64,000 bases of DNA, from IMG/VR virus record IMGVR_UViG_3300020061_000001, positions 35,007 through 99,006 of that record; one strand, written 5' to 3'. The DNA comes from a virus. The stretch's first letter is position 1. Every line of letters starts with the position of its first letter. The notes under the pieces were generated by a model, which was not told where the DNA came from, did not search any database, and worked only from the letters and a program-made list of their open reading frames with translations. This document shows positions 402-33,283 of the stretch, piece by piece. The translations under genes and the position numbers were made by a program.

Positions 402-950
402 ATGAGAGAAAATCCAATACTATACGTTGTACTGAACAAAGAACTTAATATGAGTGCGGGTAAAGCAGCAGCTCAAGCTGTTCATGCAGCTATGATGTTG
501 CAAGGTGTTGCTGGTAGTAATCAATTTGCGGACAACTACAGGAGAACTGTGGTAGTTCTGGAAGCAGAAAACTCTGAACAAATCAGAAACTTACATGAAT
601 ATTTAAAAAGTGCTCGTATTTATTCACAATATTACATTGACGAGGGTGTAAATGAGATTAGCGCTTATTCTATTACAGCATTGGCGGTTGTCCCGTTTGA
701 TGCAAGTGACGAGCAGAAACGAGAGATATTTGCTCCGTTTAACTTATTTGGCTATGAAGACAACGATGATTACGATGACTGTAACACTGTTTCACCTTAT
801 AAGCCAGATTCTCAAGAGCTACAGACTCTTAAAAGAATCGAGTATACAGTTGGGTTAGTTAAGAGCCAAGTAACACCTGTCCCCAAGACTAAGCGCCCTA
901 ATTTCTTAAAGAGATTGTTAATGCGTGGATACAGAGACTTTGTTTCGTGA
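402..950 (+). CDS. pth2: Peptidyl-tRNA hydrolase, Pth2 (archaeal/eukaryotic) type
   Basis: The N-terminal ~115 residues fit the PTH2 fold: a first beta strand ILYVVLNKEL, then the family's signature helix with SAGKAAAQAVHAA (about residues 18-30, cf. GKxAAQxxHA of Pth2), and a later DEGVNEISAYSITALAVVP stretch matching the D-x-G-x-T-x-I segment before the last strand. PTH2 enzymes cleave stalled peptidyl-tRNA to recycle tRNA. The ~60-residue acidic then basic tail after residue 120 is extra. It is the first of several tRNA/RNA-related genes. Its stop overlaps the GTG of the next gene by two bases, so the pair is probably translated together. Confidence 0.75.
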   Translation: MRENPILYVVLNKELNMSAGKAAAQAVHAAMMLQGVAGSNQFADNYRRTVVVLEAENSEQIRNLHEYLKSARIYSQYYIDEGVNEISAYSITALAVVPFDASDEQKREIFAPFNLFGYEDNDDYDDCNTVSPYKPDSQELQTLKRIEYTVGLVKSQVTPVPKTKRPNFLKRLLMRGYRDFVS

Positions 951-1714
951 AAATCTTGGTGGGCTCAACTGCTCTAGTACAGCATATTGATATTGGTCGC
1001 ACTCCGCAGGACGTTGATTATTTCACTGATGAAGTCATGAAACCTAAAAAGGGTGGTAATGACCCTTTTAGTCACGAGTCATTAAAGGAATATTTTAGTG
1101 ATGTTGATAGAACTGCTAGTTTAGATGAACTTTATTCCATTAAGGTGTCTCATATATTTTGGGATTTGCGCAACGGCACATGGGAAAAACACGCCAGAGA
1201 TATTATGTTAATGCAAGAGAATGGCGCAAAGCTTATAGGGCCTCTTTATAAAGTGCTTTATAAGATATGGCTAGAAATTCACGGTAATAAAAAAGCTAAT
1301 CTTAATCAGATGGCAGGTGAGTTCTTTAATGATAAGGTTGTCAGAATTTATGTTCACGATTCTATCCATGCTTCTGTTGCTTACTATGACACTCCACTTT
1401 ACGAAAGAATATTAGCAGATGACGAAGAAGTAAAAGTAGATAAATCAAAATGGGAGGCTATGCCATTTGAGGATAAGCTTAAATGTGTAAGAGAAGAGGT
1501 ATATGCTACAGCTTTGGAGCGTTTGGTAATTCCGTCCAACTATACCTATAGCCCTCGTAGAGCTTACGCATGGGCACTCCGCAGAACAGTTACATCGCTT
1601 ACTAGAGGTTGGTTCGCATTATTTATTGTCGAGAATCTCGCAGCGCTATGGTCGCCGGATGTTAATTATGTACAAGTTCATAAAGATAATAGTAATAAAC
1701 TAATAAAATTATAA
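947..1714 (+). CDS. Nucleotidyltransferase-fold protein
   Basis: GTG start overlapping the previous stop. Residues 1-30 carry a minimal nucleotidyltransferase signature: G6-S7 after a beta strand, then D22-x-D24 (QDVDYF), the metal-binding pair of the pol-beta superfamily. The remaining ~220 residues are helical with conserved-looking basic patches (RRAYAWALRR). It resembles the phage DUF7275-type predicted nucleotidyltransferases, but I cannot name its substrate. Its position directly after Pth2 and near the RlaP-like and CCA-type enzymes suggests an RNA substrate (inference). Confidence 0.55.
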   Translation: MKILVGSTALVQHIDIGRTPQDVDYFTDEVMKPKKGGNDPFSHESLKEYFSDVDRTASLDELYSIKVSHIFWDLRNGTWEKHARDIMLMQENGAKLIGPLYKVLYKIWLEIHGNKKANLNQMAGEFFNDKVVRIYVHDSIHASVAYYDTPLYERILADDEEVKVDKSKWEAMPFEDKLKCVREEVYATALERLVIPSNYTYSPRRAYAWALRRTVTSLTRGWFALFIVENLAALWSPDVNYVQVHKDNSNKLIKL

Positions 1715-1723
1715 AGGGTATAT

Positions 1724-2047
1724 ATGAGTTTTACAGCAAAAGAAGTAGAAGAGAAAATAAGTGAATTTGAAGAAGCTGGTTATGAATCAACTTATGGTGG
1801 TGGTGTTTACTACGATCTAAAAGGCGAACAAGAAGATATAGAAGTTACAGGTTTTGGAACTTTAAAGTTTGTTGATGAGTACGGTGGTGAAGGTTCTGGT
1901 GACGAGTTTTGGGTAGTGTTTAAGGTCGGCGATCAATTCTTTCGCAAGGAAGGTTGGTACGCTTCTTACGATGGTGGAGAACTTGATGGAGAACTATATG
2001 AGGTGAAGGCAGCAAAAGTGCAACGCACAGAATATGAGAGAATCTAA
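1724..2047 (+). CDS. Acidic phage protein, family A paralog
   Basis: 107 residues, strongly acidic. The C-terminal half (EFWVVFKVGDQFF..GWYASYDGGELDG) recurs in looser form in the genes at 2147 and 2766, so three tandem relatives occur here. The shared core is beta-strand rich with a WYxSYDGxELDG signature common in phage proteins of unknown function. A good Shine-Dalgarno (AAAGGG) precedes the ATG, and the stop overlaps the next ATG (TAATG). Confidence 0.7.
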   Translation: MSFTAKEVEEKISEFEEAGYESTYGGGVYYDLKGEQEDIEVTGFGTLKFVDEYGGEGSGDEFWVVFKVGDQFFRKEGWYASYDGGELDGELYEVKAAKVQRTEYERI

Positions 2048-2154
2048 TGGCTAGTAATGTAAATCGTAAATATAGGCACGTTTACTGCGGAATTGTTCAT
2101 AAGCGTGGAGATTGTAAAAAGGCTAAATTAGCAAAAGGGGAAAGTAATGAGTAA
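2047..2154 (+). CDS. Very small basic protein (35 aa)
   Basis: ATG overlaps the preceding stop (TAATG) and the gene ends overlapping the next ATG. The product begins MASNVNRKYRHVYCGIVHK and is lysine/arginine-rich with two cysteines about 12 residues apart. Function unknown. The double overlap and lack of another gene in this gap support it as real. Confidence 0.6.
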   Translation: MASNVNRKYRHVYCGIVHKRGDCKKAKLAKGESNE

Positions 2155-2554: not shown

Positions 2555-2769
2555 TGAGTAGTTCTCCTTTAATGGTCCAGATTGACCTAGAGTCTATTAC
2601 TACTGGTCGCCAGATGACAACTTGGGTTGAACAGGATGACTTGATAAAGCAGGGTAATCAAGTCAAGCTTAAAAATGAAGATGCTTGGTTAAAAATAGTT
2701 AAAGTATACGAAGACGTGATTGTCCCAAAAGATCAATTGGGCGTCAGAGGGTTTAAGAATAATATATGA
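2554..2769 (+). CDS. Hypothetical protein (71 aa)
   Basis: TAATG coupling with the previous gene and ATGA coupling with the next. Small predicted beta protein (KLKNEDAWLKIVKVYEDVIV). Not recognised. Confidence 0.6.
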   Translation: MSSSPLMVQIDLESITTGRQMTTWVEQDDLIKQGNQVKLKNEDAWLKIVKVYEDVIVPKDQLGVRGFKNNI

Positions 2770-3086
2770 AACCAGTAACATATAGACACAATTGGGACTC
2801 TAAAATGAGTCGAGAAGAAGAGATGGCTGAGAAGTTTGGACAACTTTTAGTTTCTCATGATACAAGTGAAGACTATGAAGAAGAGACATCCTCACTATTT
2901 GTAAGAGATGGTGAGTATACTTGGATTGATTCTAATGGTTGTTCTTGTTGGGACGGTGATTATGATGGTTGGATTCTTGATCTTGAAGAATTAAAAGCAT
3001 TGGCTAAAAAGACTTATGATAATCGTTACGATGGTCGTGATCGAGCTGAAGAACTTGTTGCAGGTTGGGTTTTGGAGAATCTATAA
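2766..3086 (+). CDS. Acidic phage protein, family A paralog (106 aa)
   Basis: Contains EYTWIDSNGCSCWDGDYDG, the family-A signature also seen at 1724 and 2147, in a protein that is about one quarter D/E. Helical tail. ATGA start overlap and TAATG end overlap place it in the same operon. Confidence 0.65.
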   Translation: MKPVTYRHNWDSKMSREEEMAEKFGQLLVSHDTSEDYEEETSSLFVRDGEYTWIDSNGCSCWDGDYDGWILDLEELKALAKKTYDNRYDGRDRAEELVAGWVLENL

Positions 3087-4030
3087 TGTCATATAATGGC
3101 TGGAAAATGATGGACAAGATAGATGTCGCAATAAAGACATCGCCTAGTACTTGGACATTTACAGGATACGTTGTAGAACATGGTGATAAAAGAGGTCTAG
3201 AATCTGCTAAGGACTGGGCGCGTGATCGTAACTATGACTATGCTAAGAAAGAATATACCAAAATATATGAGCCTGACGTTAAGACATTCGACAATGGTGG
3301 CTTCACTGTAAAAATCCTTAAGTCTGCTGGGGGTTCATCACAGGGTGGCCGTTTGTCGTTCTTAGCTTGTGAAGTTGAGAAAGATGGCATAAAGTTTATT
3401 ATCGGCGTGAACGATGCTTTGCTTGTTGATCTTATACGCAATAGCCATATCGACATGGGCGTGATAAGAGAGAAAGTTATGTTCGTTCGTAAGGGCGGTG
3501 TTCCTGGGTTTATTCATGAAAACATGGAAGCCTATAAAGAAGCAATAGCTGACATGAAACAAAAGTCAGACCTCAAAAAGGCTAAAAAGACTAAGAACTG
3601 GGAAATAGGAGGTGTTTATTCTACTCTTACCCAGACTGATATTTGTCTTGGCGAAGTATGGGATACTCTGGAGACTTATGAAGTCGAAGAGAGTTACAGC
3701 AGTTATCGCTGGGGTTCACGTAAGGCAACAAAATATCGTAAACTAGAAAAGCCAGTTAAAATGACAGCATGGATTAGCCTAAGCACTTACACCCACAAGA
3801 ATGGTTTGCCAGAAGACCTTGAAACATTTTTAAAAGAAGAATTGAAAGATCGTACTTACATTTCATTCTCCACAGGAACGCCTCCAGCGCGAACAAAGTC
3901 GGGTCAGTTAAAACTTAAAGACACCGACGGTAAGCTACTTGACACATTGTTTAAGGCTAAGCGTGAGTATGGTAATTATTACAGTGAAGAAGACAGAATT
4001 AAGGGTCGTTACGTGAAGGAGATAAAGTAA
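3086..4030 (+). CDS. Phage protein of unknown function (314 aa)
   Basis: Start chosen at the ATG overlapping the preceding stop (TAATG, product MSYNGWKMMD) rather than the TTG 21 bases earlier. Mixed alpha/beta protein with a lysine-rich middle (DLKKAKKTKNWE) and many aromatic residues. No catalytic motif recognised. Long genes of this type in phage early regions often act on nucleic acid, but nothing here proves it. Confidence 0.7.
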   Translation: MSYNGWKMMDKIDVAIKTSPSTWTFTGYVVEHGDKRGLESAKDWARDRNYDYAKKEYTKIYEPDVKTFDNGGFTVKILKSAGGSSQGGRLSFLACEVEKDGIKFIIGVNDALLVDLIRNSHIDMGVIREKVMFVRKGGVPGFIHENMEAYKEAIADMKQKSDLKKAKKTKNWEIGGVYSTLTQTDICLGEVWDTLETYEVEESYSSYRWGSRKATKYRKLEKPVKMTAWISLSTYTHKNGLPEDLETFLKEELKDRTYISFSTGTPPARTKSGQLKLKDTDGKLLDTLFKAKREYGNYYSEEDRIKGRYVKEIK

Positions 4031-4311
4031 TGAAAGACGCTCTTGGCTCTACACTGGGTAAGGGTGATTTAGTGGCTTATTCACCACAGTCTAATTACAC
4101 TATTAGAATTGCTATTGTAGTGGACCCAACAAAAAATACAATTCTTTCTGGAACTTGCTTACCTGATGGCAATGTCAGTATTCGTGGTCGTGTTGGTAGC
4201 GCTATTAGCAGCCGTCTAGTAAAGTTAGCTAGTCGTTATGAGACAGATGACTACGAAACTATTTATGATGATTTTATAGAAAAATTACAAGAAATGAACA
4301 TAAAGATATGA
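4030..4311 (+). CDS. Hypothetical protein (93 aa)
   Basis: TAATG overlap with the gene before, ATGA overlap with the one after. N-terminal ~60 residues look like a small beta barrel (GKGDLVAYSPQSNYTIRIAIVV), similar in feel to KOW/SH3-like modules, followed by an acidic helix. Not recognised. Confidence 0.65.
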   Translation: MKDALGSTLGKGDLVAYSPQSNYTIRIAIVVDPTKNTILSGTCLPDGNVSIRGRVGSAISSRLVKLASRYETDDYETIYDDFIEKLQEMNIKI

Positions 4312-4598
4312 GATATAGGCACGAAGAATATTCGCCACAGAATAAGATACAATATGTCATTGCAGTTGGCGTACATGAGCTGAGAGCATTGCTTGGAGCT
4401 GTACAGGTGGCTATTAATAATGCTCCTATTATTACAGAAGAAGAAAAAGAACGTTTTAACGCTCTTAGGAGTTCTAGAAAAGGTTTGGCAGAAGCCATTA
4501 AAGTGGCAGAGGCAAAACAAGATGACGGCAAGCGACGTAAGCCATACGTCGGAGAAGGGGAGCAGGGACAGCGTGAAGCCAATATACGTTCTAATTGA
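4308..4598 (+). CDS. Hypothetical helical protein (96 aa)
   Basis: ATGA overlap at its start. All-helical prediction with a basic, glycine-rich tail. The last 26 bases overlap the next gene, whose GTG start lies inside it. Not recognised. Confidence 0.6.
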   Translation: MRYRHEEYSPQNKIQYVIAVGVHELRALLGAVQVAINNAPIITEEEKERFNALRSSRKGLAEAIKVAEAKQDDGKRRKPYVGEGEQGQREANIRSN

Positions 4599-4773
4599 TA
4601 AATCTACAGGGGAGTTTTGGCATCCGCTTGGCCACAACGGTAAGCCTAAATATGTGAAGCGTGGGGTGCAGGCATATCTATCTCCCAAGAAGGCATTGTC
4701 TTCCGCGATGCAATTTCATCCAAAACCTGACCCAGAAACAATAAAAGTAGTCGAGTACAAGGTGAACTTATGA
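4573..4773 (+). CDS. Hypothetical protein (66 aa)
   Basis: The frame is open much further upstream (from 4393), but a GTG at 4573 preceded by AGGGA gives a compact product beginning VKPIYVLIDKSTGEFWHPLG. The upstream extension would lie wholly inside the 4308 gene. Ends ATGA-coupled to the next gene. Unknown function. Confidence 0.6.
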   Translation: MKPIYVLIDKSTGEFWHPLGHNGKPKYVKRGVQAYLSPKKALSSAMQFHPKPDPETIKVVEYKVNL

Positions 4774-4934
4774 ACGAAGATGCCCCAAAGCCACATACAG
4801 AAGAAGAAGTTGCTTTTTGGGAGTCACGAATAGCGAGTGCGGAAACCATCGGAGATGTTGAAGGCACTCTTATATATAGAGGCATCCTAGCGCGTCGTGC
4901 GTTGATATGTATAGCACTGGAAGAAGAACTATGA
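4770..4934 (+). CDS. Small acidic protein (54 aa)
   Basis: Overlaps the previous gene by ATGA. Product starts MNEDAPKPHTEEEVAFWES and is helical and acidic. Its stop overlaps the ATG of the orphaned RlaP start fragment (ATGA), showing that it was once directly coupled to the RlaP-like gene. Confidence 0.6.
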   Translation: MNEDAPKPHTEEEVAFWESRIASAETIGDVEGTLIYRGILARRALICIALEEEL

Positions 4935-4966
4935 AACCAAATAACATTATCCTAGAAGGCGATTAG
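4931..4966 (+). pseudogene. Orphaned N-terminus of the RlaP-like gene
   Basis: A 12-codon ORF reading MKPNNIILEGD then stop. It mirrors the start of the intact RlaP-like gene at 5573 (MNKKPNRIILEGVVGSR), with DNA differences mostly at third codon positions. It keeps the ATGA overlap expected of the original gene start. The simplest reading is that the GIY-YIG gene inserted right after these codons and carried a replacement 5' end for the target gene. Confidence 0.6.
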
Positions 4967-4983
4967 TTTATAATTGATAATAT

Positions 4984-5604
4984 ATGATTGGTTATATTTA
5001 TAAACACACATCACCTTCGGGTAAATCGTACATAGGGCAGACGTTAGGGACATTAAAGAGGCGTTGGGATTCTGGTCACGGATATGCTCCTGCGACTATA
5101 TTCGGCTCGGCAATAAAAAAATATGGTTGGAAAAACTTTGAACATGTAGTTTTGCATATAGTCGAAGCCGAAGACAGTGAAAGTCTCGTAAATGAATTAA
5201 ATGCTCTTGAAATATCTGAGATTGTGGCGCATAATAGTATACATCCAGACGGCTATAACGGTACTCTTGGTGGAAGAAATGGGTTTCGAACTGAAAACCA
5301 AAAATCGCAGATCAGTAAAACACTAACGGGCAGAAAAATATCAGATGAACATAGAGCTAATATATCACTTGCCCTAAAACGAAGATGGCAAGACCCAGTT
5401 TGGCAAGAGAACTTTTCTGAAAAAATGAAAGCCAAATATAGAGAAGAAGACTACAACAAAAAAAGAAGCGCATCGTTGAGTAAAGCGCTAAAAGGGCGTA
5501 CGATGTCAGACGAATGGAAAAAGAGAATGTCTGATGCAGCGAAAAAACGCTGGGAAAACAAAAGGTTAGAAAATGAACAAAAAGCCAAACCGAATTATAC
5601 TTGA
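4984..5604 (+). CDS. GIY-YIG homing endonuclease with NUMOD3 repeats
   Basis: 206 residues. The N-terminal ~90 residues hold the GIY-YIG nuclease core (GYIYKHTSPSGKSYIGQT, then RRW and a conserved N/E region). After it come NUMOD3-like DNA-binding repeats (KTLTGRKISDEHRANISLAL and SKALKGRTMSDEWKKRMS) spaced with basic linkers. This is the usual build of free-standing homing endonucleases. A TATAAT at 4969-4974 lies 9 nt before the ATG. The last 32 bases overlap the start of the RlaP-like gene in another frame, so the homing gene's tail recreates the target's 5' end. Confidence 0.85.
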   Translation: MIGYIYKHTSPSGKSYIGQTLGTLKRRWDSGHGYAPATIFGSAIKKYGWKNFEHVVLHIVEAEDSESLVNELNALEISEIVAHNSIHPDGYNGTLGGRNGFRTENQKSQISKTLTGRKISDEHRANISLALKRRWQDPVWQENFSEKMKAKYREEDYNKKRSASLSKALKGRTMSDEWKKRMSDAAKKRWENKRLENEQKAKPNYT

Positions 5605-6262
5605 GGGAGTCGTAGGCTCAAGAGCATACGGGCTTGCAACTGAGTCTAGTGATACCGATGTTAAAGGTATATATTTACTACCTACTAGCACGGTTCTAGG
5701 TATCAATTTTAATCCACAAAAAACTACCATACAGAACACTAATCCAGACGAAGTTTATCACGAAGTTGGTAAATTTATGAAGCTCGCTGGTGGGGGTAAT
5801 CCAACTGTGTCTGAACTATTGTGGCTTGAAAGTTATACTGTGCTTAATCCTATTGGCAAATTGTTAGTAGATAACCGCAAAATCTTTCTATCAACTCCGG
5901 CAGTCACGAACGCATATCGAGGTTATGCTCTTGGTCAAGCTATGGACTTGAGTAGGAGGCAGGAAGAGGGTAAAGAGGGGTACGATAGTGCTCTTAAAAA
6001 CCGTTTTGCAAAACACACTAGACATTGCTTCCGTTTACTGCTACAATGTAGACAGCTTCTCGAAACAGGCGAATTAACCGTTAGAGTGACTCCTGAGCAG
6101 CGAGAATGGTTATTCAAGATGGGAGAACAGACACCAGAAACGGTTGTTGACGCCTTCATTATTGAAGATAGAAAGATGGAAGATATTAAATCAATCCTTC
6201 CGGACGAGCCTAATTGGAAAAAGATTGATGAATTGCTGTATAGCATAAGGATGGGAAAATGA
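5573..6262 (+). CDS. RlaP-like nucleotidyltransferase
   Basis: Pol-beta-superfamily nucleotidyltransferase of the RlaP (RNA-ligase-associated polymerase) type: G15-S16-R-A-Y-G-L, then D27-x-D29 (SSDTDVKG), followed by the family's WLES segment and a helical C-terminal half containing KNRFAKHTRHCFRLLLQC. RlaP proteins are linked in the literature to RNA repair alongside RNA ligases; no ligase is seen in this window. The start sits inside the 3' end of the GIY-YIG gene. ATGA coupling to the next gene. Confidence 0.75.
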   Translation: MNKKPNRIILEGVVGSRAYGLATESSDTDVKGIYLLPTSTVLGINFNPQKTTIQNTNPDEVYHEVGKFMKLAGGGNPTVSELLWLESYTVLNPIGKLLVDNRKIFLSTPAVTNAYRGYALGQAMDLSRRQEEGKEGYDSALKNRFAKHTRHCFRLLLQCRQLLETGELTVRVTPEQREWLFKMGEQTPETVVDAFIIEDRKMEDIKSILPDEPNWKKIDELLYSIRMGK

Positions 6263-6594
6263 AATTATTAAAATCAGAAGAAGATTTATTAGAGTTTGAT
6301 AATGGCTTAGTTGTTAAAGGTGTTGGTGATGAAGACTGTTGCGCATCTAATTATCTAGACTTTGAACAATTTGAAGTTGGTCAAGAATTTCCAGACATGA
6401 CAGCTAAGCAATTTGCTAAAAAAATAACGCTCAAAGAAGATGGCTTTGCTCTAACATCTAAAGACGGTATGCCTAAGTGGTGTCAAGCGCGTTCAGTTCA
6501 AAACGGTTATTATTCTGACGTCACTACCGTGTATCTTGAGTATAAAGGCGAAGAGATTAAATTAGGTGACCTTAGAGGCGAACAGAGAGATTAA
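6259..6594 (+). CDS. Phage protein, family B paralog (111 aa)
   Basis: Near-twin of the gene at 26587: both open with MK(L/V)(L/I)KSE, share GDxDCCAxNYLDF, FEVGQEFP and PKWCQARSxQNGYYSD. The DCC plus WCQAR cysteines suggest a shared metal or disulfide site. DUF7448-like in appearance; function unknown. Confidence 0.7.
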   Translation: MKLLKSEEDLLEFDNGLVVKGVGDEDCCASNYLDFEQFEVGQEFPDMTAKQFAKKITLKEDGFALTSKDGMPKWCQARSVQNGYYSDVTTVYLEYKGEEIKLGDLRGEQRD

Positions 6595-6595
6595 T

Positions 6596-7573
6596 ATGGA
6601 AAAAGCATTAGCAATACAAAAACAAGTAATTGAAATTCTTGGCACAGAAGATGTCTATCTTGTTGGTGGTTCCGTTCGTGATATTGTTATGGGTAATGAA
6701 CCAAAAGATTATGACTTTACTACTCCTATGCTCCCAGACGATATCGAAGCAGCCGTTAAAAAGGCTGGGCGCAAGTCTTATGGTATTGGCAAGAAGTTCG
6801 GTACTATTGGTTTTAAGGTCCCAGTGAACATATCAGATGAAACTGGTGAAGTAGTCGCCACTGATTACGAATACGTTGAAGTAACAACTTTCCGTTCTGA
6901 GGTATACACAAGCAAGTCTCGCAAGCCAGAAGTAGAGTTTGTTGCTTCATTAGACGAAGACCTTGCTCGTCGTGACTTCACTATGAACGCGATGGTACTT
7001 CGTCCAGATGGGACTATCTATGACCCATACGGAGGCAAGCTTCATATCCACAGCAAGCAAATTGTAACTGTAGGGCTTCCTAAAGATCGTATTCAAGAAG
7101 ACCCTCTTCGCATACTTCGCGCGGCACGTTTTGCAGCTCGTTATAATTTTGAAATTGACCCCAATTTCATCGGTAAGGCAAGGCAACTCGCAGATCGTAT
7201 CTACGATGTATCTGTTGAGCGTTGGGTACAGGAACTTGATAAGCTGCTTATATCAGAGTCTGTAGAAAAGGGCATGACAAGTCTCCAAAAGATGGGGGTT
7301 CTTATAAGAATTTTACCAGAGGTAGAATCTGTGTTGAAAATATACCCATCGTTAAAAGATATTTTACTCTTTGAGGGTGATCGCAGGAATGGTAATCCAG
7401 ACTTTGCTTGGAAACACCTACTTAGTTGGAACGGTCTACCACACGTTAATGAATCTGATAGTTCACGTATTAAAATATCAAAGTATGTGAATATAGGTGT
7501 CTGTGCGCGATTAAAATTCTCCAACGAACGTACAGATATAATACTTGACAACAAGAAGAAAAAACAGGTATAA
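6596..7573 (+). CDS. cca: CCA-adding enzyme / class II tRNA nucleotidyltransferase
   Basis: 325 residues from the ATG at 6596 (the TTG at 6566 lies in the previous gene). All class II landmarks are present: G24-G-S-V-R-D29, metal pair D38-x-D40 (KDYDFTT), motif C RRDFTMNAM at 125-133, motif D-like EDPLRILRAARFAARY, and the ERW motif E segment. These enzymes add or repair the 3' CCA of tRNA. The C-terminal domain is shorter than in bacterial enzymes (~400 aa). With Pth2, RlaP-like and the HAD gene at 17162 it suggests tRNA upkeep during infection. The promoter for the next gene lies inside its last codons. Confidence 0.85.
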   Translation: MEKALAIQKQVIEILGTEDVYLVGGSVRDIVMGNEPKDYDFTTPMLPDDIEAAVKKAGRKSYGIGKKFGTIGFKVPVNISDETGEVVATDYEYVEVTTFRSEVYTSKSRKPEVEFVASLDEDLARRDFTMNAMVLRPDGTIYDPYGGKLHIHSKQIVTVGLPKDRIQEDPLRILRAARFAARYNFEIDPNFIGKARQLADRIYDVSVERWVQELDKLLISESVEKGMTSLQKMGVLIRILPEVESVLKIYPSLKDILLFEGDRRNGNPDFAWKHLLSWNGLPHVNESDSSRIKISKYVNIGVCARLKFSNERTDIILDNKKKKQV

Positions 7574-11383: not shown

Positions 11384-11408
11384 ATATTACTATTGTACAT
11401 AAAAGGGC

Positions 11409-11437
11409 TTGTGTTTTCCTGTAAAAAAGAGCATAAT
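11409..11437 (+). promoter_or_regulatory. Class 1 repeat promoter, copy 1
   Basis: TTGTGT at 11409-11414, exactly 17 bp, CATAAT at 11432-11437, inside the repeated core CTTGTGTTTT...AGAGCATAATTA. The leader carries the shared TAAGAAAGGCTT ribosome-binding block before the ATG at 11470. Confidence 0.75.
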
Positions 11438-11469
11438 TATGTTTAGTAAATCAATAAGAAAGGCTTACT

Positions 11470-11658
11470 ATGAAAATTTCAATTTGCGACATCCACAAAC
11501 TTAAAGAAAATAAGATAGTTGAATCAGTTTATCGCCGTGGTTATACTGGACATACAAAGATAGATGTTTGTGAAGAACATAAAGAATATCCTATGGGCAA
11601 TACACCGGAAGAGTTCATTGAAATTTATCTCAAATTGTCACAGAAGGTAACAGTCTAA
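11470..11658 (+). CDS. Small zinc-knuckle-like protein (62 aa)
   Basis: First gene after a class 1 promoter. Two CxxH pairs (ICDIHK and VCEEHKEY, 27 residues apart) could bind one zinc. Function unknown. TAATG coupling to the next gene. Confidence 0.65.
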   Translation: MKISICDIHKLKENKIVESVYRRGYTGHTKIDVCEEHKEYPMGNTPEEFIEIYLKLSQKVTV

Positions 11659-11966
11659 TGAAGTTTGAAATTGTTAGCAAATGGAATGATATGGATTTTG
11701 GTGGTAGCGCATTATGTGGTTCTGTTATCATCTCTCGAGAAGAATTAGTCAAGCGATTTGGTGAGCCTATCAACCTTGAAGGCGAACGTATTACTGAGCG
11801 TTGGCTTTTTAAGTTCGAAGATGGCACTGTTGCCACTATCTTCAATGACAAAAAGATTCGTCGCCAGAAAGAGAATGAATGGTTTATCGGAGGCTTCGGC
11901 CATTATGATAAGAAAACCAAAGAGAATATCTCGTTTCGTAGTATGAAAGAGCTCTTAGGGGTCTAA
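11658..11966 (+). CDS. Hypothetical beta-rich protein (102 aa)
   Basis: Alternating strands (RWLFKFEDGTVATIF) and a basic C-terminal half. Not recognised. Overlaps the preceding stop by one base. Confidence 0.65.
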   Translation: MKFEIVSKWNDMDFGGSALCGSVIISREELVKRFGEPINLEGERITERWLFKFEDGTVATIFNDKKIRRQKENEWFIGGFGHYDKKTKENISFRSMKELLGV

Positions 11967-11970
11967 GCTT

Positions 11971-12174
11971 ATGGCTAAGAAAGTTTTGGTGGGGCAGTTA
12001 GTAGATTACTACTGGGACTTGAATGATACGATTGAAACAATCGAGATGATGGGTAATATTAGTTCGGAGGAAATAACTGAATTAAGAAATTTGCAAATAT
12101 CTTTAGACACAATATTAACTAACGTAAGCAAGCGGTGGGCTAAAGGGAAGAAAGACGATGTTAGGAATACTTAA
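11971..12174 (+). CDS. Hypothetical helical protein (67 aa)
   Basis: Helical, with a basic end (RWAKGKKDD). Overlaps the next gene by 17 bases. Not recognised. Confidence 0.6.
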   Translation: MAKKVLVGQLVDYYWDLNDTIETIEMMGNISSEEITELRNLQISLDTILTNVSKRWAKGKKDDVRNT

Positions 12175-12349
12175 ACGATTTTGGGAACAACTTACCTGTG
12201 CTCACTTTTGGAAATATGACGGCACTAAAGATGATAGCGAATCTCATTGGCATTGGCACAAAGAAAAATGTGATAATTGTGGTAAAAAACGTGAAGTAAT
12301 GAATGATTATAATCGGGATGCTTGCGGACACTGTTCAGGTGATAATTAA
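12158..12349 (+). CDS. Small zinc-ribbon protein (63 aa)
   Basis: C-D-N-C-G at residues 38-42 and C-G-H-C near the end make a four-cysteine zinc ribbon, preceded by an amphipathic N-terminus and a run of histidines (SHWHWHKEKC). Probably structural or nucleic-acid-binding. Confidence 0.65.
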   Translation: MLGILKRFWEQLTCAHFWKYDGTKDDSESHWHWHKEKCDNCGKKREVMNDYNRDACGHCSGDN

Positions 12350-12354
12350 TCCTA

Positions 12355-12366
12355 TATAATAGGACT
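12355..12366 (+). promoter_or_regulatory. -10 box placed for a leaderless transcript
   Basis: TATAAT at 12355-12360 with the ATG 6 nt later. No good -35 box is seen, so strength is uncertain, but the spacing equals that at 402, 7581 and 55330. Confidence 0.4.
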
Positions 12367-12504
12367 ATGGCAAATCACAAACGTAAAGCAAATTATAAAG
12401 CAAGTCGTTCTTGCGGACTATGTAAACCTCATAAACGAGTTGGCAACGGTAAAGAGCGCACAAAACTAAAATATAAGCTTATCCATGAGATTATGCATAG
12501 ATGA
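12367..12504 (+). CDS. Small basic CxxC protein (45 aa)
   Basis: MANHKRKANYKASRSCGLC opens a very basic protein with one CxxC and CKPHK. No Shine-Dalgarno. Its stop overlaps the NinG ATG (ATGA), indicating coupling to it. Likely nucleic-acid-binding; family not named. Confidence 0.6.
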   Translation: MANHKRKANYKASRSCGLCKPHKRVGNGKERTKLKYKLIHEIMHR

Positions 12505-13040
12505 GCCCAAAGCCATGTAAATGGTGTAGCTCAATTTGGCACAGCAAGAACAAATGTCCAAAACGCGAAAAACAGGCTCTCCCTGACGGTTTTATACAGA
12601 AACGTACAAATGTGCCACTTTTGCGTCAGAAGCCCTCAGACGAGCTTAGATTAGCTTACAAGGGCAGTTCTGAACGTAGCCAGCTAATAGGCTGGGCAGA
12701 TAAATACTTCTCGCTATATATTAGGCAAAGAGATAGTGATGGTTCCGATAATCATTGTTATACTTGTGGCAGAAAATTCCCAATAGATGAACTCCAATGT
12801 GGACATTTTATGTCTCGTCGATTCTTAAAGACCAGATGGGATGAAATAAATTGTCATCCGCAGTGTAATGAATGCAATGTAGACAAGCATGGTAACTTAA
12901 TAGTATACGAAGTATTATTAAGAAGAGATTATGGAGACTTAGAAATAGATAAGCTTAAACAATTCGCTCGATCTGGCAAGAAGGTCAGTCAAGCAGATAT
13001 ACGGGAGGTTATAGATTTATATAAAGGGGTTGTGTTTTAA
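12501..13040 (+). CDS. ninG: NinG (Rap)-like recombination protein
   Basis: 179 residues. An N-terminal CKWCSSIWHSKNKC zinc knuckle precedes the NinG core: YIRQRDSDG, C-Y-T-C-G, QCGHFMSRRFLKTRWDE, C-H-P-Q-C-N-E-C-N, and GNLIVYEVLLRRDYG. NinG/Rap of lambdoid phages acts on branched DNA in recombination. Its presence fits a phage doing its own recombination-dependent replication or repair. Confidence 0.8.
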   Translation: MSPKPCKWCSSIWHSKNKCPKREKQALPDGFIQKRTNVPLLRQKPSDELRLAYKGSSERSQLIGWADKYFSLYIRQRDSDGSDNHCYTCGRKFPIDELQCGHFMSRRFLKTRWDEINCHPQCNECNVDKHGNLIVYEVLLRRDYGDLEIDKLKQFARSGKKVSQADIREVIDLYKGVVF

Positions 13041-13058
13041 CAATAAAAAGAGCATAAT
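13030..13058 (+). promoter_or_regulatory. Class 1 repeat promoter, copy 2
   Basis: TTGTGT at 13030-13035, 17 bp, CATAAT at 13053-13058, overlapping the end of ninG. Transcription would start near 13065 into a stretch without a long gene. Confidence 0.7.
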
Positions 13059-13076
13059 TAAAAGCGTAGTGGTAGA

Positions 13077-13208
13077 ATGCGTCGCAAATACGCAGGAGAA
13101 TCACTAGACGAGCCTTTCTTAGGAGACACCTTAATTGGTGTCTCTTTCCTTGTAGATTATTCTACATCATTAAATCATAGACAGGTTGAACAGGGTGTGA
13201 TATCATAA
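13077..13208 (+). CDS. Possible 43-aa protein (MRRKYAGES...)
   Basis: Open frame downstream of class 1 promoter copy 2, reading MRRKYAGESLDEPFLGDTLI at its start. There is no clear Shine-Dalgarno, and a perfect hairpin lies inside it. It may be a real small gene or chance; the same transcript could instead be a short untranslated RNA. Confidence 0.3.
   Translation: MRRKYAGESLDEPFLGDTLIGVSFLVDYSTSLNHRQVEQGVIS
13121..13150 (+). terminator. Hairpin, possible terminator
   Basis: GAGACACC / GGTGTCTC pair perfectly around a TTAATT loop and are followed by TTTCCTT. The T tract is weak. If it acts, the promoter at 13030 makes a ~85-nt RNA. Confidence 0.45.
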
Positions 13209-13212
13209 ATAT
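13178..13212 (+). promoter_or_regulatory. Sigma70-like promoter of the 13.2-kb structured RNA
   Basis: TAGACA at 13178-13183, 17 bp, TATCAT at 13201-13206. Start predicted at about 13213. Confidence 0.5.
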
Positions 13213-13527
13213 ATGAGCGTTTGTGGTAGCTTAATAAGCATCCTGACGGCTAAAGCACCTAATAGGCTAGAAATAGTAGCGCACATCGGGAAGTAACCAA
13301 GAGCCCGTTGGCAATGAACTGAAAACCTCTGGGTTACACCAGCAGGGCAAGGTTCCTATGGAGTTAAACGGACGCATTACCAAAACCTAGCAAAGATTTA
13401 CTTCGAAACTAGTCAGGGCGTCCGCATGTTGGTAAAGTTCTGGAAACAGAATCCCAACCCACAACCGCGTTCAAGAGGGATGACCATCCTTCGAAAAGTA
13501 GAAGACACCTTTAGCGGGGTGTTTTTT
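13213..13527 (+). ncRNA. Structured non-coding RNA of unknown class (~310 nt)
   Basis: A stretch without long ORFs, bounded by its own promoter and a terminator hairpin. Perfect or near-perfect stems: 13293-13303 with 13327-13337 (10 of 11), CGGACGC 13369-13375 with GCGTCCG 13418-13424, GTTGG 13428-13432 with CCAAC 13454-13458 enclosing GTTCTG/CAGAAT capped by a GAAA tetraloop (13437-13452). I could not match it to tmRNA, RNase P RNA or group I introns. A 27-codon leaderless ORF also starts at 13213, but most of the transcript is not coding. Confidence 0.6.
13505..13527 (+). terminator. Intrinsic terminator of the structured RNA
   Basis: ACACC / GGTGT stem with an 8-nt loop, followed directly by TTTTTT. 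Confidence 0.6.
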
Positions 13528-13588
13528 ATTTACCCTTGCTAAACTCTTAGAAATAGCTTATACTTATAACATATTGAAGGAACTAAAA

Positions 13589-13792
13589 ATGCAGTTAACT
13601 AAGACAGAAAAAAATGAATTATTAGAAATGTTAAAGATGGTTGATGTTAAAAAGCTCGACATTGATGTACAAGATGAGAGTAAAGTCAAATGGTTCAGGT
13701 TTGGTTCTTATAATGGAATGCAAATTGCTAGTGAAATTATTAAGTCTATAAAGGAAAAACCAGATGAAACGACTAAAAGAAATACTCAGTGA
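13589..13792 (+). CDS. Hypothetical protein (67 aa)
   Basis: ATG at 13589 chosen over the TTG at 13574 because AAGGAA sits at the right distance. Helical, lysine/glutamate-rich. Overlaps the next gene by 29 bases. Unknown. Confidence 0.6.
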   Translation: MQLTKTEKNELLEMLKMVDVKKLDIDVQDESKVKWFRFGSYNGMQIASEIIKSIKEKPDETTKRNTQ

Positions 13793-13889
13793 CCGTGAAC
13801 TACAAGTCAGTCTTTTTCTTGTCATCTTCTGGTTAATTGCAATTATATTATTTATTTATATAGCTTTGCACATGCCTGATAACGCATAG
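13764..13889 (+). CDS. Small membrane protein (41 aa)
   Basis: Basic N-terminus (MKRLKEILSDRE) then one hydrophobic helix (VSLFLVIFWLIAIILFIYI). Preceded by GGAAAAACCAG. Unknown function. Confidence 0.5.
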   Translation: MKRLKEILSDRELQVSLFLVIFWLIAIILFIYIALHMPDNA

Positions 13890-13892
13890 CCC

Positions 13893-13928
13893 TTGTGTTT
13901 TTCCTGAGAAAAGAGCATAATAAGTCTT
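13893..13928 (+). promoter_or_regulatory. Class 1 repeat promoter, copy 3 (leaderless)
   Basis: TTGTGT 13893-13898, 17 bp, CATAAT 13916-13921. The ATG at 13929 is 7 nt on, so this copy combines the class 1 core with a leaderless start. Confidence 0.7.
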
Positions 13929-14099
13929 ATGAAAACTCAAGAAGCATATAATCAGTATCTTTTGTACGCTCAGGCACAACATGAATATTATGAAACACTT
14001 ACTTGGGTGTTATTTACAATCTTTATAATTGCCCCTCTTTGTGTGGCTTTAATTTACACCGCTGTAGCAATTTATCTTAATAGAAGGGGCAGACTTTAA
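13929..14099 (+). CDS. Small membrane protein (56 aa)
   Basis: Polar, glutamine/tyrosine-rich N-terminus, then one membrane helix of about 25 residues (VLFTIFIIAPLCVALIYTA) and a basic end RRGRL. Has its own promoter and no leader. Confidence 0.6.
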   Translation: MKTQEAYNQYLLYAQAQHEYYETLTWVLFTIFIIAPLCVALIYTAVAIYLNRRGRL

Positions 14100-14114
14100 A
14101 GTTCAACAAAACGC

Positions 14115-14143
14115 TTGTGTTTTGCGACGATTGAGAGCATAAT
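14115..14143 (+). promoter_or_regulatory. Class 1 repeat promoter, copy 4
   Basis: TTGTGT 14115-14120, 17 bp, CATAAT 14138-14143; the leader again has TAAGAAAGGCTT before the ATG at 14180. Confidence 0.75.
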
Positions 14144-14179
14144 TCATAGTATAAGTGAAATAAGAAAGGCTTATACAAA

Positions 14180-14458
14180 ATGAAAACTCAAATAACAGTA
14201 GAATATCCAACAATAGAAAATGTAGTTATAAAAACCCTAGCAGAAGCTAAGGCTATGGGCTACAAAAGCGCAATCGTTCGCCACGAACCAGTTAATCGCC
14301 CGTATAAAATTCAAGTTAAGCAGGTTAAACGACTTGTTAAAGAAGAGTTTATGGACGATAAAGAATGGGAAAACGAATTAGAAGGTATGGCCAAAGCCCA
14401 AACTGGCATGAGCCGTACTGCTCATCAATCTCGTCTCAAGAAAAGTTGGAATGAGTAA
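14180..14458 (+). CDS. Hypothetical basic protein (92 aa)
   Basis: First gene of a class 1 transcript. N-terminal alpha/beta, then basic helices. TAATG coupling to the next gene. Not recognised. Confidence 0.65.
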   Translation: MKTQITVEYPTIENVVIKTLAEAKAMGYKSAIVRHEPVNRPYKIQVKQVKRLVKEEFMDDKEWENELEGMAKAQTGMSRTAHQSRLKKSWNE

Positions 14459-14901
14459 TGTGTAGCAGTACTCTTCTAACCGTTGCAGAAATGACAGAAC
14501 ATGAACTGATCACTCTACGCAATCGTTTATACGGACAGATTCGAAAGAATGATAGTCCTCGTTTAGATTTGCAATTACACGCAGTTCAAGGAGAACTTAA
14601 AGATCGTGGTTTTATCACTAAGAATAAAGCTCTTCACACGGGAATAGAAATTACTCGTGGTAAAGCTACTATGGTCTTTGATGTAATGGACTCTAGTGTT
14701 CATGTTGAGGGGGCAGCTGTCACATCGGCCCGTAAACATGTTCAAGATATGTTAAAAGAAGGTACTAGAATCCCTGGGGGATGGAACCTGCAAGATAAAG
14801 GAACTGTTGGTCATCATTCTCACGATTATGAGATTAAGCACATGGCCATGAATAAACGTGAAATACAAAATGTAATGTTAAGATTAACGAGAGTGAAATA
14901 A
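14458..14901 (+). CDS. Hypothetical protein (147 aa)
   Basis: N-terminal helix (EMTEHELITLRNRLYGQIRK) and a C-terminal part rich in histidines (GHHSHDYEIKHMAM). Coupled on both sides by TAATG. Unknown. Confidence 0.65.
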   Translation: MCSSTLLTVAEMTEHELITLRNRLYGQIRKNDSPRLDLQLHAVQGELKDRGFITKNKALHTGIEITRGKATMVFDVMDSSVHVEGAAVTSARKHVQDMLKEGTRIPGGWNLQDKGTVGHHSHDYEIKHMAMNKREIQNVMLRLTRVK

Positions 14902-15149
14902 TGAATAAAATAGACCTTGTAAATATTACTCGGCTAGAACTTATAGATCATACTAACTGTGAATCTTGTAAGGGTGTCGGTCGTGTTATCATATCTGGAC
15001 AAGTAGACTCGTTAGAATGCCCAAATTGTCACGGTTTAGGTACGAATGGTCGCACAGTTGTGTTTATCAATCCACGCAAACAGATTGAAACATCAATCCA
15101 AGATGACGGTAGGACACTTAAGATATTTATTAGTAAGAGGCGTCCATGA
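14901..15149 (+). CDS. DnaJ-type zinc-finger protein (82 aa)
   Basis: CESCKGVG and CPNCHGLG, about 20 residues apart, form one DnaJ-like CxxCxGxG zinc unit, followed by two beta strands. Similar units occur at 27093 and in the MuF protein. ATGA coupling to the next gene. Confidence 0.7.
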   Translation: MNKIDLVNITRLELIDHTNCESCKGVGRVIISGQVDSLECPNCHGLGTNGRTVVFINPRKQIETSIQDDGRTLKIFISKRRP

Positions 15150-15271
15150 GTCTAAGAGATGCTTTAACATTTTCTATTACAGCTACTGTTATTTTTCTTA
15201 TTATAGCTTGTATTGCTGTTTGGTTAGTAGGTCGTTACGAAAATAGGAAGACTAAAAGGAGGAAAAAGTAA
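15146..15271 (+). CDS. Small membrane protein (41 aa)
   Basis: One hydrophobic helix (ITATVIFLIIACIAVWLV) then a very basic tail (RYENRKTKRRKK). ATGA start and TAATG end overlaps. Confidence 0.55.
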   Translation: MSLRDALTFSITATVIFLIIACIAVWLVGRYENRKTKRRKK

Positions 15272-15504
15272 TGGAAATTAAAGATATGTTAAGTAAAGCC
15301 CATAAACAAGGCTGTAGCGTAGGAGAACTTGCGCTTGCAGAGTTTATTTTAAAGTCGTATGCTGGTGAAATATCTCCTACGTTAAAAGCTTTTCTTGAAA
15401 AAATAGCCCAAAGTGGGTATGTAGATATAAGTGAAAATGTTGGGAAACCAGCAGAAGATGTTGCGTTACAAGTAAGCGATATATTAAACAAAGTTGTAAA
15501 ATAA
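15271..15504 (+). CDS. Hypothetical helical protein (77 aa)
   Basis: GGAGG Shine-Dalgarno. All helix. The end (DISENVGKPAEDVALQVSDIL) resembles the end of the 35768 gene (GYLDKPEEDVYLLVETQL), hinting at a common fold. Confidence 0.65.
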   Translation: MEIKDMLSKAHKQGCSVGELALAEFILKSYAGEISPTLKAFLEKIAQSGYVDISENVGKPAEDVALQVSDILNKVVK

Positions 15505-15509
15505 AACGC

Positions 15510-15538
15510 TTGTGTTTTCGCACGAAAAGACCTATAAT
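15510..15538 (+). promoter_or_regulatory. Class 1 repeat promoter, copy 5
   Basis: TTGTGT 15510-15515, 17 bp, TATAAT 15533-15538: the only plus-strand copy with a perfect -10 box. Confidence 0.75.
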
Positions 15539-15569
15539 TAAACCATAAGTAATAAGCGAGGGTATAGTA

Positions 15570-15797
15570 ATGGCAACAGAGAAACAAGATATAAAGAAAA
15601 CAGTTAGTAGAGTAATTGATGGAGTCACAAAAGACTTACCAAATGCTGTAAAAGAAAATAAAGGTGCTGCAATTGGCGCAGTTCTTGGCTATTTTTTAGC
15701 TGATACAGTTAAGAAAAATGAAGGTCTTATCACAGCCGTTCTTGGTGGTCTTGTTGGACATGTGATCGACGAGAAAAAGAAAAAGGATGTCTTCTAA
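15570..15797 (+). CDS. Glycine-zipper membrane protein (75 aa)
   Basis: Basic amphipathic N-terminus, then KGAAIGAVLGYFLAD and GLITAVLGGLVGHVI, a paired glycine-zipper motif typical of small membrane-inserting proteins. GAGGG upstream; TAATG to the next gene. Confidence 0.65.
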   Translation: MATEKQDIKKTVSRVIDGVTKDLPNAVKENKGAAIGAVLGYFLADTVKKNEGLITAVLGGLVGHVIDEKKKKDVF

Positions 15798-15886
15798 TGG
15801 GTTTTCTCGGGGATGTAGTAGCACTTCCATTCGTAATTATTGAAGACGTTTCTGGCGCAATCGCAGACGTTCTGGAGGAATTGTAA
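15797..15886 (+). CDS. Tiny hydrophobic acidic peptide (29 aa)
   Basis: Starts MGFLGDVVALPFVIIEDVSG; coupled by TAATG on both sides inside a membrane-protein operon. Confidence 0.5.
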   Translation: MGFLGDVVALPFVIIEDVSGAIADVLEEL

Positions 15887-16224
15887 TGCCAAGCACTAAA
15901 GATGCGCAAAAGGCCGTAATAGAATCTAAAATCCCAGCAAGCGTGAAAGCTGGAATAGAAGCTCTTGCTAAAGGTCTTGGGGTTGCCGCGATTGAACTAT
16001 GGTCAATCTTCGTACGACAGTATGTTGTTAAAGGTCTGACAGAATTGTTCACCGCACTAGTATTGGTAGGCTCAGGAGCTTTCCTTTGCACACTTGTTGG
16101 TTATTGGGGAATTATTCCTATTGCTGCAAGTCTACCGTTCTTCTACGGCACTATTCAATTACTCGGTAACCCTAAGTACTACGCCATCACGGACATTACA
16201 AAAAAGATAAAAGAGCTTAAATAA
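15886..16224 (+). CDS. Two-pass membrane protein (112 aa)
   Basis: Helical N-terminal half, then two hydrophobic segments (GLTELFTALVLVGSGAFL and YWGIIPIAASLPFFYGTI) and a lysine-rich tail. GGAGG upstream. Unknown. Confidence 0.65.
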   Translation: MPSTKDAQKAVIESKIPASVKAGIEALAKGLGVAAIELWSIFVRQYVVKGLTELFTALVLVGSGAFLCTLVGYWGIIPIAASLPFFYGTIQLLGNPKYYAITDITKKIKELK

Positions 16225-16225
16225 C

Positions 16226-16738
16226 ATGATTTTTGTCTTTGAGTCATTACTAGAGAACCGAAAGGCAAAAGTTGATGCGTGGAGAGAACAAGGACAGAGA
16301 TGGGTTAAGGCAAGAAATGCAACCAGTAGTTACGCCCACTATAGTTTTGAAGACTACGAGCGCAGGAACCCAGCGCCATTATCGGTTAAGAAAGTGGCTA
16401 GTTTCGTACTTCCTGGTATTGCTGTGGGTGCAGTTGTTGCCTTTGCTATTTGGGGTATTGCTTCAGTTCCTCCAAAGAAAGTAGACCCAAACAATCCGCA
16501 CGACTGTTCTGTTGTTGTTAAGAAAGATGATAAAGTAGCCGTTACCTATGGCCCCTTTGTAGGAAGTGAAGGAACAGTTATTAACCAAGAAGATGGTTGT
16601 GGGGTAAATATTAAGCTTACTAAATCTACAAACACAAGAGAAGATTGTGTCAAGAAAGGTTATCAAGACTGCCGTTCAGAAAAGAACATCGGTGACGAGC
16701 TAAACGTCGATACATCACAAAATATTACTAAGTTATAG
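16226..16738 (+). CDS. Membrane-anchored protein with KOW-like domain (170 aa)
   Basis: Basic cytoplasmic start, one membrane helix around residues 52-72 (VLPGIAVGAVVAFAIWGI), then an outer domain with DKVAVTYGPFVGSEGTVIN, a KOW/SH3-like barrel, and four cysteines likely in disulfides. Topology suggests an envelope protein, possibly changing the surface of the infected cell (inference). Confidence 0.6.
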   Translation: MIFVFESLLENRKAKVDAWREQGQRWVKARNATSSYAHYSFEDYERRNPAPLSVKKVASFVLPGIAVGAVVAFAIWGIASVPPKKVDPNNPHDCSVVVKKDDKVAVTYGPFVGSEGTVINQEDGCGVNIKLTKSTNTREDCVKKGYQDCRSEKNIGDELNVDTSQNITKL

Positions 16739-16750
16739 GGGTAAAGAACC

Positions 16751-16945
16751 ATGACAAGAAGAGACTACTTATTAGTAGCAGGTTCGCTGGCTAAGTGTGC
16801 TGGTGGACTCACTCAAGATGAGCTGCTCTATGTCGCTGATATGATAGCGAATGAAATGCAGAAACAGAACCCAGCTTTTAAGTATGATCTTTTCTTAGAA
16901 ACCTCAGGTGTGACCAAAGAAACAATCGAAAGGTCAAAGCAATGA
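16751..16945 (+). CDS. Hypothetical helical protein (64 aa)
   Basis: Preceded by GGGGTAAAG. Helical (MTRRDYLLVAGSLAKCAGGL). ATGA coupling. Unknown. Confidence 0.6.
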   Translation: MTRRDYLLVAGSLAKCAGGLTQDELLYVADMIANEMQKQNPAFKYDLFLETSGVTKETIERSKQ

Positions 16946-17169
16946 TTACCGAAAAGCCAAAACTTGTAATCGGCGACATTGTTATTGTTTATATTAGTAG
17001 AATTGGCCTACCTCAGGAAGATGAAATCCATAATCCTAGAATTATGAGTAAGACAGTCACAAGTATAGGTTTTGCAAGTTCTATGTGGGTGTTTAACTAT
17101 GACACTGAGCCATTTTGTTATGACAATGTTGATTACATATTAAGAAAGGGGAAATGGAAACATGCATAA
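16942..17169 (+). CDS. Hypothetical beta protein (75 aa)
   Basis: Strand-rich (KLVIGDIVIVYISRIG) and barrel-like. Overlaps the next gene by 8 bases. Unknown. Confidence 0.6.
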   Translation: MITEKPKLVIGDIVIVYISRIGLPQEDEIHNPRIMSKTVTSIGFASSMWVFNYDTEPFCYDNVDYILRKGKWKHA

Positions 17170-17761
17170 TCTTTATAAAATTGTTGACGAAGAGAATGAA
17201 CACAATGGTCAGCTCGGCGTATTACAAGAGGTTAATGAAGTAGCTCCTCACTTAAGTATGTTTAGCTTGGAATTTTCAGACGGTAGGCAATCAAGTTTTT
17301 TCTCTCATCAATTAGAAAAGATACCGAAAAAGCTTATTTTTCTTGATGTAGATGGCGTTCTTAATAGTCAACACTATGCAGTTGTATCTGAGTCTCGCGG
17401 GGTTCTTGGTATAGACCCATATCCTGCTTTTTTACTAGGGAAGATTGTATTAGATACTGGATGTGAGGTTGTTCTTTCCAGCACTTGGCGCTTATGGAAG
17501 AATGCACGAGAAGATGTGCGCAAACAGGTTGTGGAATTTATTGACATTACGCCTGATTTAGGCAATGTACCGCGCGGTGAAGAGATTCAAAAATGGCTTA
17601 AAGATAATAATTGCGAAGATGCTCGATATGCTATCCTTGACGATAATAGCGACATGCTTGAATCGCAACTTCCGAACTTTTTCCAGACAACTACCGAGTT
17701 CGGCTTAACGCAAAAGATAGCTAAAGCAGTAACCGAACACTTAAATAAGGGGAGTAAATAA
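17162..17761 (+). CDS. HAD-family phosphatase of the RNA-repair (Swiss-army-knife) type
   Basis: 199 residues. Residues 58-66 hold HAD motif I (IFLDVDGVL, D62 and D64). Motif II region is VVLSSTWR at ~103-110, then RGEEIQKWLK and the metal-binding AILDDNSDM. The order D-x-D-G-V-L / SSTWR / RGxEIxxWL / ILDD is that of HAD domains found in Swiss-army-knife RNA-repair proteins. The first ~50 residues look like a small beta domain. It could remove phosphates from damaged RNA ends and fits the RlaP, CCA and Pth2 genes. Confidence 0.7.
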   Translation: MHNLYKIVDEENEHNGQLGVLQEVNEVAPHLSMFSLEFSDGRQSSFFSHQLEKIPKKLIFLDVDGVLNSQHYAVVSESRGVLGIDPYPAFLLGKIVLDTGCEVVLSSTWRLWKNAREDVRKQVVEFIDITPDLGNVPRGEEIQKWLKDNNCEDARYAILDDNSDMLESQLPNFFQTTTEFGLTQKIAKAVTEHLNKGSK

Positions 17762-17762
17762 A

Positions 17763-33282: not shown

Positions 33283-33283
33283 T

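Follow-up and report, generated by a model that had tools for sequence, protein, structure and literature searches.

A conserved, predicted RNA-repair island that probably keeps transfer RNAs usable during infection by ~100-kb phages

Repair of transfer RNA (tRNA) by the Pnkp and RNA ligase of phage T4, directed against PrrC, is mentioned in PMC10264068, and section 3.4.9 of PMC7824862 describes in jumbo phages a wider set comprising RNA ligase with an end-healing Pnkp or phosphatase, RlaP, a CCA enzyme and PTH2, and many tRNA genes, with roles proposed as an answer to tRNA-cutting immunity. Genes predicted to encode the same enzymes, for which we propose the same roles, were found in the 99,006-base virus record IMGVR_UViG_3300020061_000001, of which the 64,000 nucleotides at positions 35,007–99,006 (the window) were analyzed. 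Pth2, RlaP and the CCA enzyme belong to the core of a compact island that begins upstream of the window, where about half of it is located, and that is well supported from sequence as serving RNA repair (Table 1); it is a clustered member of the RNA-repair kits already known from jumbo phages. We put at roughly 0.7 the probability that a conserved island, of which these genes make up the downstream half, maintains a working supply of tRNA in the infected cell. Pnkp heals 2′,3′-phosphate and 5′-OH ends, the predicted task of RlaP is to put back missing nucleotides, and the ligase seals the break; CCA enzymes rebuild tRNA tails and Pth2 frees peptidyl-tRNA.

Upstream of the window, the island runs on one strand through a metallophosphoesterase, a glycosyltransferase-like protein, the RNA ligase, Pnkp and a MetK-like gene that enters the window. 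Pnkp consists of kinase and HAD phosphatase parts and matched T4 polynucleotide kinase in the PDB at 2.7e-25. Conservation was assessed in six related records, namely this record and five relatives that came from single-gene scans of viral contigs; none of the scans returned all five, and some contigs are incomplete. The order metallophosphoesterase–GT2–ligase–Pnkp–Pth2–CCA enzyme is identical in all six, with RlaP between Pth2 and the CCA enzyme in five, and ligase identity across the records is 48–93%. From ligase to CCA enzyme the island spans 10.2 kilobases (kb) in this record, where a homing endonuclease, MetK, DUF7275 and some small genes have inserted, and 5.3–7.0 kb in each of the other five; a compact RNA-repair gene set of ~5–10 kb could be cloned as one unit. 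The ratio of nonsynonymous to synonymous substitution rates (dN/dS) against this record, in unsaturated pairs, was 0.06–0.14 for the ligase, 0.11–0.19 for the CCA enzyme and 0.17–0.41 for Pth2, showing purifying selection where it could be computed (dS was saturated in many pairs, and in all pairs for Pnkp and RlaP). The family motifs of Pth2, RlaP, the CCA enzyme and the ligase are invariant in the aligned relatives. The arrangement is one that was inherited once and kept under selection, and parts of it recur in distant records, where ligase, Pnkp and RlaP stand together (L008) or RlaP and the CCA enzyme do (L022).

Table 1 Coordinates of the island genes and other listed features (window positions unless marked L003 or record; ORF, open reading frame)
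Feature	Position	Strand	Evidence
RNA ligase	L003:13353-14636 = record 32353-33636, just before window		PF09414 5.6e-13
Pnkp	L003:14643-15545 = record 33643-34545, just before window		AAA_33 1.1e-16 and HAD_PNKP 4.2e-27
MetK-like (S-adenosylmethionine synthetase, N-terminal domain), 3′ part	1..347	+	full ORF L003:15508-16353, PF00438 4.3e-11
Pth2-type peptidyl-tRNA hydrolase	402..950	+	PF01981 E 1.6e-15, 57.8 bits vs cut-off 23
DUF7275 protein, AbiEii/MenT-like nucleotidyltransferase fold (predicted)	947..1714	+	PF23940 1.7e-62; PHROG 6944 2.2e-100
Conserved protein	3086..4030	+	tblastn and alignment; 5/6 related records
Homing endonuclease	4984..5604	+	PHROG 314 4.3e-29; NUMOD3; just before RlaP
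RlaP-type nucleotidyltransferase, predicted to fill in RNA ends during repair	5573..6262	+	PF10127 1.3e-23, 84.4 bits vs cut-off 23
Short class II CCA-adding enzyme (tRNA nucleotidyltransferase)	6596..7573	+	PF01743 (PolyA_pol) 7.9e-28; PF12627 7.8e-11
Swiss-army-knife HAD phosphatase (HAD_SAK_2)	17162..17761	+	PF18143 5.3e-23, 82.3 bits vs cut-off 27.5

An earlier note on the window had grouped Pth2, the DUF7275 gene, RlaP, the CCA enzyme and the Swiss-army-knife HAD (SAK-HAD) phosphatase as a dispersed five-gene RNA-repair kit. All five genes exist at or near the places it gave, with profile-search E-values that exclude chance, and the whole-genome check it suggested for an RNA ligase and tRNAs uncovered the ligase and Pnkp directly upstream together with 28 tRNA genes. 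The refuting condition it had set on the genome, absence of an RNA ligase or kinase, therefore fails. Its reading that the set rescues host tRNAs damaged by anticodon nucleases or other RNA-targeting defences is borne out in part: RNA repair is well supported, while tRNA as the substrate, the rescue of host and not phage tRNAs, and defence nucleases as the cause are presumed. The description as dispersed had to be given up, as Pth2 to the CCA enzyme make one island and only the SAK-HAD gene lies 10 kb off. As a kit, the grouping survives in its core of Pth2, RlaP and the CCA enzyme; SAK-HAD falls outside the island, and DUF7275 drops out on conservation (below).

Among the phages chosen for comparison, which were picked as good matches of single genes and make a small control and not a random sample, Xanthomonas phage XacN1 is alike in having an ATP-dependent RNA ligase, RlaP, a CCA enzyme, PTH2, SAK-HAD and many tRNAs, nearly all with encoded CCA. 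Its genome measures 384 kb with the PTH2, RlaP, CCA and ligase genes spread over it, whereas the present phages are of ~100 kb and hold a 5–10 kb cluster; a transfer-messenger RNA (tmRNA) scored above the cut-off here and not in XacN1. Phage T4 shares an ATP-dependent RNA ligase and a Pnkp that combines a kinase with a HAD phosphatase, but the ligase here belongs to PF09414 and to the mycobacteriophage-type family phrog_968, and RlaP, the CCA enzyme and Pth2 are added. Mycobacteriophage Bask21 (gp88/gp91), which we take to be a cluster E phage, has a ligase 43% identical to ours with Pnkp three genes away, but gave no PTH2, RlaP or CCA enzyme match and carries 2 tRNAs. Rhodococcus phage NiceHouse has the closest CCA enzyme in INPHARED (42%); it also encodes RlaP and an RNA ligase, and 32 of its tRNAs score over the cut-off, but its genes lie far apart, it gave no PTH2 match and only 3 of its 32 tRNA genes encode CCA. 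A megablast search of window positions 1–25000 against INPHARED returned no match.

The CCA gene starts at the ATG at 6596, in line with the relatives, and the protein scored higher with NCBIfam CCA models (195 bits) than with PcnB (130 bits) and matched a solved CCA-adding enzyme at 9.6e-40. The earlier note had credited it with all motifs; the catalytic motifs of such enzymes, GGxVRD, KDxDF, RRDFT and EDxLRxLRxxRF, are present and invariant. The short form is common to the relatives (314–354 amino acids (aa)). The gene is found in all six related records, in two frames in the shortest one, where the copy may be broken or misassembled. Pth2 is likewise present in all six, with the MSxGKxxAQxxHA-type residues and D80 invariant across 6 sequences; it is a divergent member of its domain family, with a predicted hydrolase function, and tblastn in INPHARED gave no match at 1e-5. 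In RlaP, the GS...DxD and HE residues are invariant in 7 sequences.

By the union of ARAGORN and Rfam, record positions 2,699–19,398, outside the window, hold a tmRNA and 28 tRNA genes, which together serve 19 amino acids; tRNA-Trp was not found in the record. That no tRNA gene had been noticed therefore holds for the window and not for the record. The tmRNA (L002:19046-19398) scored 86.3 bits with Rfam, and one above the cut-off was also found in 3 relatives; its tag, read by eye, has 24 residues and ends in LV, not LAA.

The 3′ CCA is encoded in 83 of the 85 tRNA genes checked across four related records (27/28 here and 22/23, 11/11 and 23/23 in the relatives). The count leaves out 2 sub-threshold tRNA-like matches of this record, both followed by CCA, 2 of the 25 rows of relative G003 (one beyond the analyzed stretch, one under the cut-off) and a single sub-threshold row of G004; G005 gave no row. 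By comparison, CCA is encoded in 1 of 34 tRNA genes of Streptomyces phage Annadreamy, which gave no PolyA_pol match, in the few NiceHouse genes given above, which accompany a related CCA enzyme, and in 28 of 29 examined in XacN1, which has a CCA enzyme, so that this group is unlike both actinophages tested. The control omits one Annadreamy row beyond the analyzed stretches and those rows of Annadreamy and NiceHouse that fell under the threshold; in XacN1, repeated rows count once and one partial row is dropped; Optimus, Bask21 and WXIN, with 0–2 tRNAs over the cut-off, do not enter it. A phage that needed its CCA enzyme to finish its own tRNAs would be expected to have tRNA genes without CCA. 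Because 83 of 85 tRNA genes already encode CCA, maturation of these tRNAs is an unlikely task for the enzyme, and its role here is more likely to be 3′-end repair, of phage or host tRNAs. For the NiceHouse enzyme, tRNA maturation is a possible role. The two roles of phage CCA enzymes can be separated by a simple genomic test, the presence or absence of encoded CCA in the tRNA genes of the phage itself.

Taken as a pathway, with tRNA as the presumed substrate and the steps in their presumed order, the island would act after tRNAs have been cut by a host or phage-induced RNase. Pnkp would open and remove the 2′,3′-phosphate and phosphorylate the 5′-OH, perhaps helped by the metallophosphoesterase and SAK-HAD; RlaP would replace lost nucleotides, the ligase would seal the break and the CCA enzyme would rebuild damaged 3′ tails. 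Pth2 and the phage tmRNA would release tRNAs stuck as peptidyl-tRNA, and the 28 phage tRNAs would serve as spare adaptors. As to the main source of the damage, we lean slightly toward host defence.

The encoded CCA bears directly on a different explanation, in which the CCA enzyme and Pth2 serve maturation and recycling of the phage's own tRNAs, as parts of a near-autonomous decoding set, and not repair. The size of the tRNA set fits this, as 60 of 61 sense codons would be decoded if U34 reads whole four-codon boxes and a sub-threshold tRNA-Arg(TCT) is counted, and NiceHouse pairs a related CCA enzyme with mostly CCA-less tRNA genes; yet in the present group the CCA is already there in nearly every gene, and ligase, Pnkp and RlaP have, from what is known of their families, no maturation role for intron-less tRNAs. 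We consider own-tRNA production improbable. Somewhat more weight, though still well short of an even chance, goes to a kit that mends RNA damage caused by the phage itself, through breakdown of host RNA, or ordinary 3′-end wear, instead of defence damage. Phages are known to induce host tRNA breakdown, and a full replacement set of tRNA genes would suit a phage that lets host tRNAs decay. Healing and sealing of 2′,3′-phosphate and 5′-OH ends, however, suits endonuclease cuts better than exonuclease wear (again from family knowledge), and no tRNase was seen among the proteins scanned, which were not a full search. That unrelated auxiliary genes came together by chance is very improbable: glycosyltransferases, MetK and the DNA-modification cassette of TET and TET-associated glycosyltransferase (TAGT) genes also lie around the island, and the presence of DUF7275, MetK and the homing endonuclease varies, but the ligase–Pnkp–Pth2–CCA order holds in all six records despite ligase identity down to 48%, and the partial groupings in the distant L008 and L022 point the same way.

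Several observations weigh against the proposal that the island keeps the tRNA pool usable. The six records are akin, and their common gene order counts as one inherited arrangement, not six independent events. Two of the core enzymes are atypical for their families: Pth2 falls below the NCBIfam Pth2 equivalog cut-off (41.5 bits vs 126), and the CCA enzyme falls below all NCBIfam equivalog cut-offs and is short, at 325 aa against 404–421 aa in the three best-matching solved enzymes. The substrates of the ligase and Pnkp could be RNAs of another kind than tRNA. The unclustered XacN1 set means that clustering is not required for function, and the NiceHouse CCA enzyme, beside mostly CCA-less tRNA genes, indicates that phage CCA enzymes can have another role. 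Lastly, the clues to the host diverge, and no matching defence system can be named: 6 of 7 ligase relatives in genomes lie on Actinomycetota contigs, but the terminase is 26–28% like those of Bacteroidetes phages and the encoded CCA differs from what the two actinophages show. PADLOC gave no match for the core enzymes, its weak matches being solely DUF7275 and the upstream metallophosphoesterase.

A more specific form of the repair proposal, which we offer as speculative and rather doubtful, casts the CCA enzyme as a counter-defence: it would rebuild tRNA tails that host immunity has removed, for instance through Cas12a3-like CRISPR effectors, and against these, spare tRNAs from the phage would be no protection. 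The 3086–4030 protein would then be a new RlaP partner. If this is true, the CCA enzyme looks after the 3′ tails and the trio of ligase, Pnkp and RlaP after the anticodon loop, and both exposed tRNA ends are protected. Cuts that spare the discriminator base are ones that a phage CCA enzyme could reverse. With regard to Cas12a3 (PMC12851939), a CCA enzyme in a phage with CCA-encoding tRNAs is a direct candidate, although genome comparison alone is insufficient to decide it. No paper linking a phage CCA enzyme to Cas12a3 was found in a limited literature search.

The 3086–4030 protein is a candidate RlaP partner by association: five records have both, and the one record that lacks RlaP lacks this protein too. 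The two genes adjoin directly in four relatives, in varying order, and in one the gene lies in two frames. Its structural model is poor (predicted local distance difference test (pLDDT) 64.7), and a PDB search with it gave no match at E <= 0.001. For its one distant relative in INPHARED, from Bacillus phage P59, no recognizable RNA-repair family was seen among nine proteins scanned (the protein itself and eight neighbours). The homing endonuclease gave no match in the relatives' loci; it entered the island and stands outside the kit.

The nucleotidyltransferase fold that the earlier note had assigned to the 947 gene is supported by the AlphaFold2 model of the DUF7275 protein (pLDDT 89.2) together with G6-S7...D22-x-D24 (the GS...DxD residues), invariant in 23 sequences. 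The nine best VIA-align rows for the model, at Z 5.4–8.0, were eight nucleotidyltransferases or viral poly(A) polymerases and one AbiEi antitoxin, and included MenT1, MenT4, TglT, JHP933 and a giant-virus poly(A) polymerase; row ten, at Z 3.9, was again a viral poly(A) polymerase. Plain Foldseek returned nothing with E < 0.1. As a core member of the kit, DUF7275 was rejected: of the six related records, a single one gave a PF23940 match, and another has a 28-residue remnant after Pth2. In viral contigs, a single-sequence query found none and an alignment query 30; small proteins akin to gene 1724–2047 accompany DUF7275 in 25 of these 30 loci, and it therefore belongs to a separate module. One viral locus (L078:4010-8355) places DUF7275 near Pnkp and a CCA-like gene, an independent hint that it can join RNA-repair sets.

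Two further phosphoesterases may take part in end healing. SAK-HAD, kept in 4 of the 6 related records (two records are short), is a candidate 3′-phosphatase of RNA repair; the gene adjoining it (window 17763-19031) looks GHKL ATPase-like by eye and matched only PHROGs of unknown function. The metallophosphoesterase (L003:11626-12327), which precedes the ligase in all six records, matched weakly to ApaH and to phrog_8238, a family named RNA ligase whose other part matches Pnkp, and is a candidate 2′,3′-phosphoesterase. The MetK-like ORF, between Pnkp and Pth2 in this record, matched TIGR01034 at 6e-14, under the cut-off.

Beside the island, at window 8785-11021, a ParB-like protein, a TET/JBP dioxygenase (PF12851 4.4e-18) and a TAGT (PF20691 5.3e-9) stand in a row, predicted from their families to be a DNA base hypermodification cassette. 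In tblastn, all three genes were found in 3 of the 5 relatives; a fourth has only the ParB-like and TET genes, and the fifth none within the examined locus. In the distant ligase–Pnkp–RlaP record, the translations of genes at L008:16000-18950, read by eye, resemble enzymes that make 7-deazaguanine (queuosine). On the minus strand of this record, L002:17506-18234 encodes an R2K-clade ATP-grasp protein (PF14243 1.3e-7), of a family presumably linked to conflict systems, and the outer parts of the record hold two vWA-domain proteins (window 62222-63010 and L002:9278-10312).

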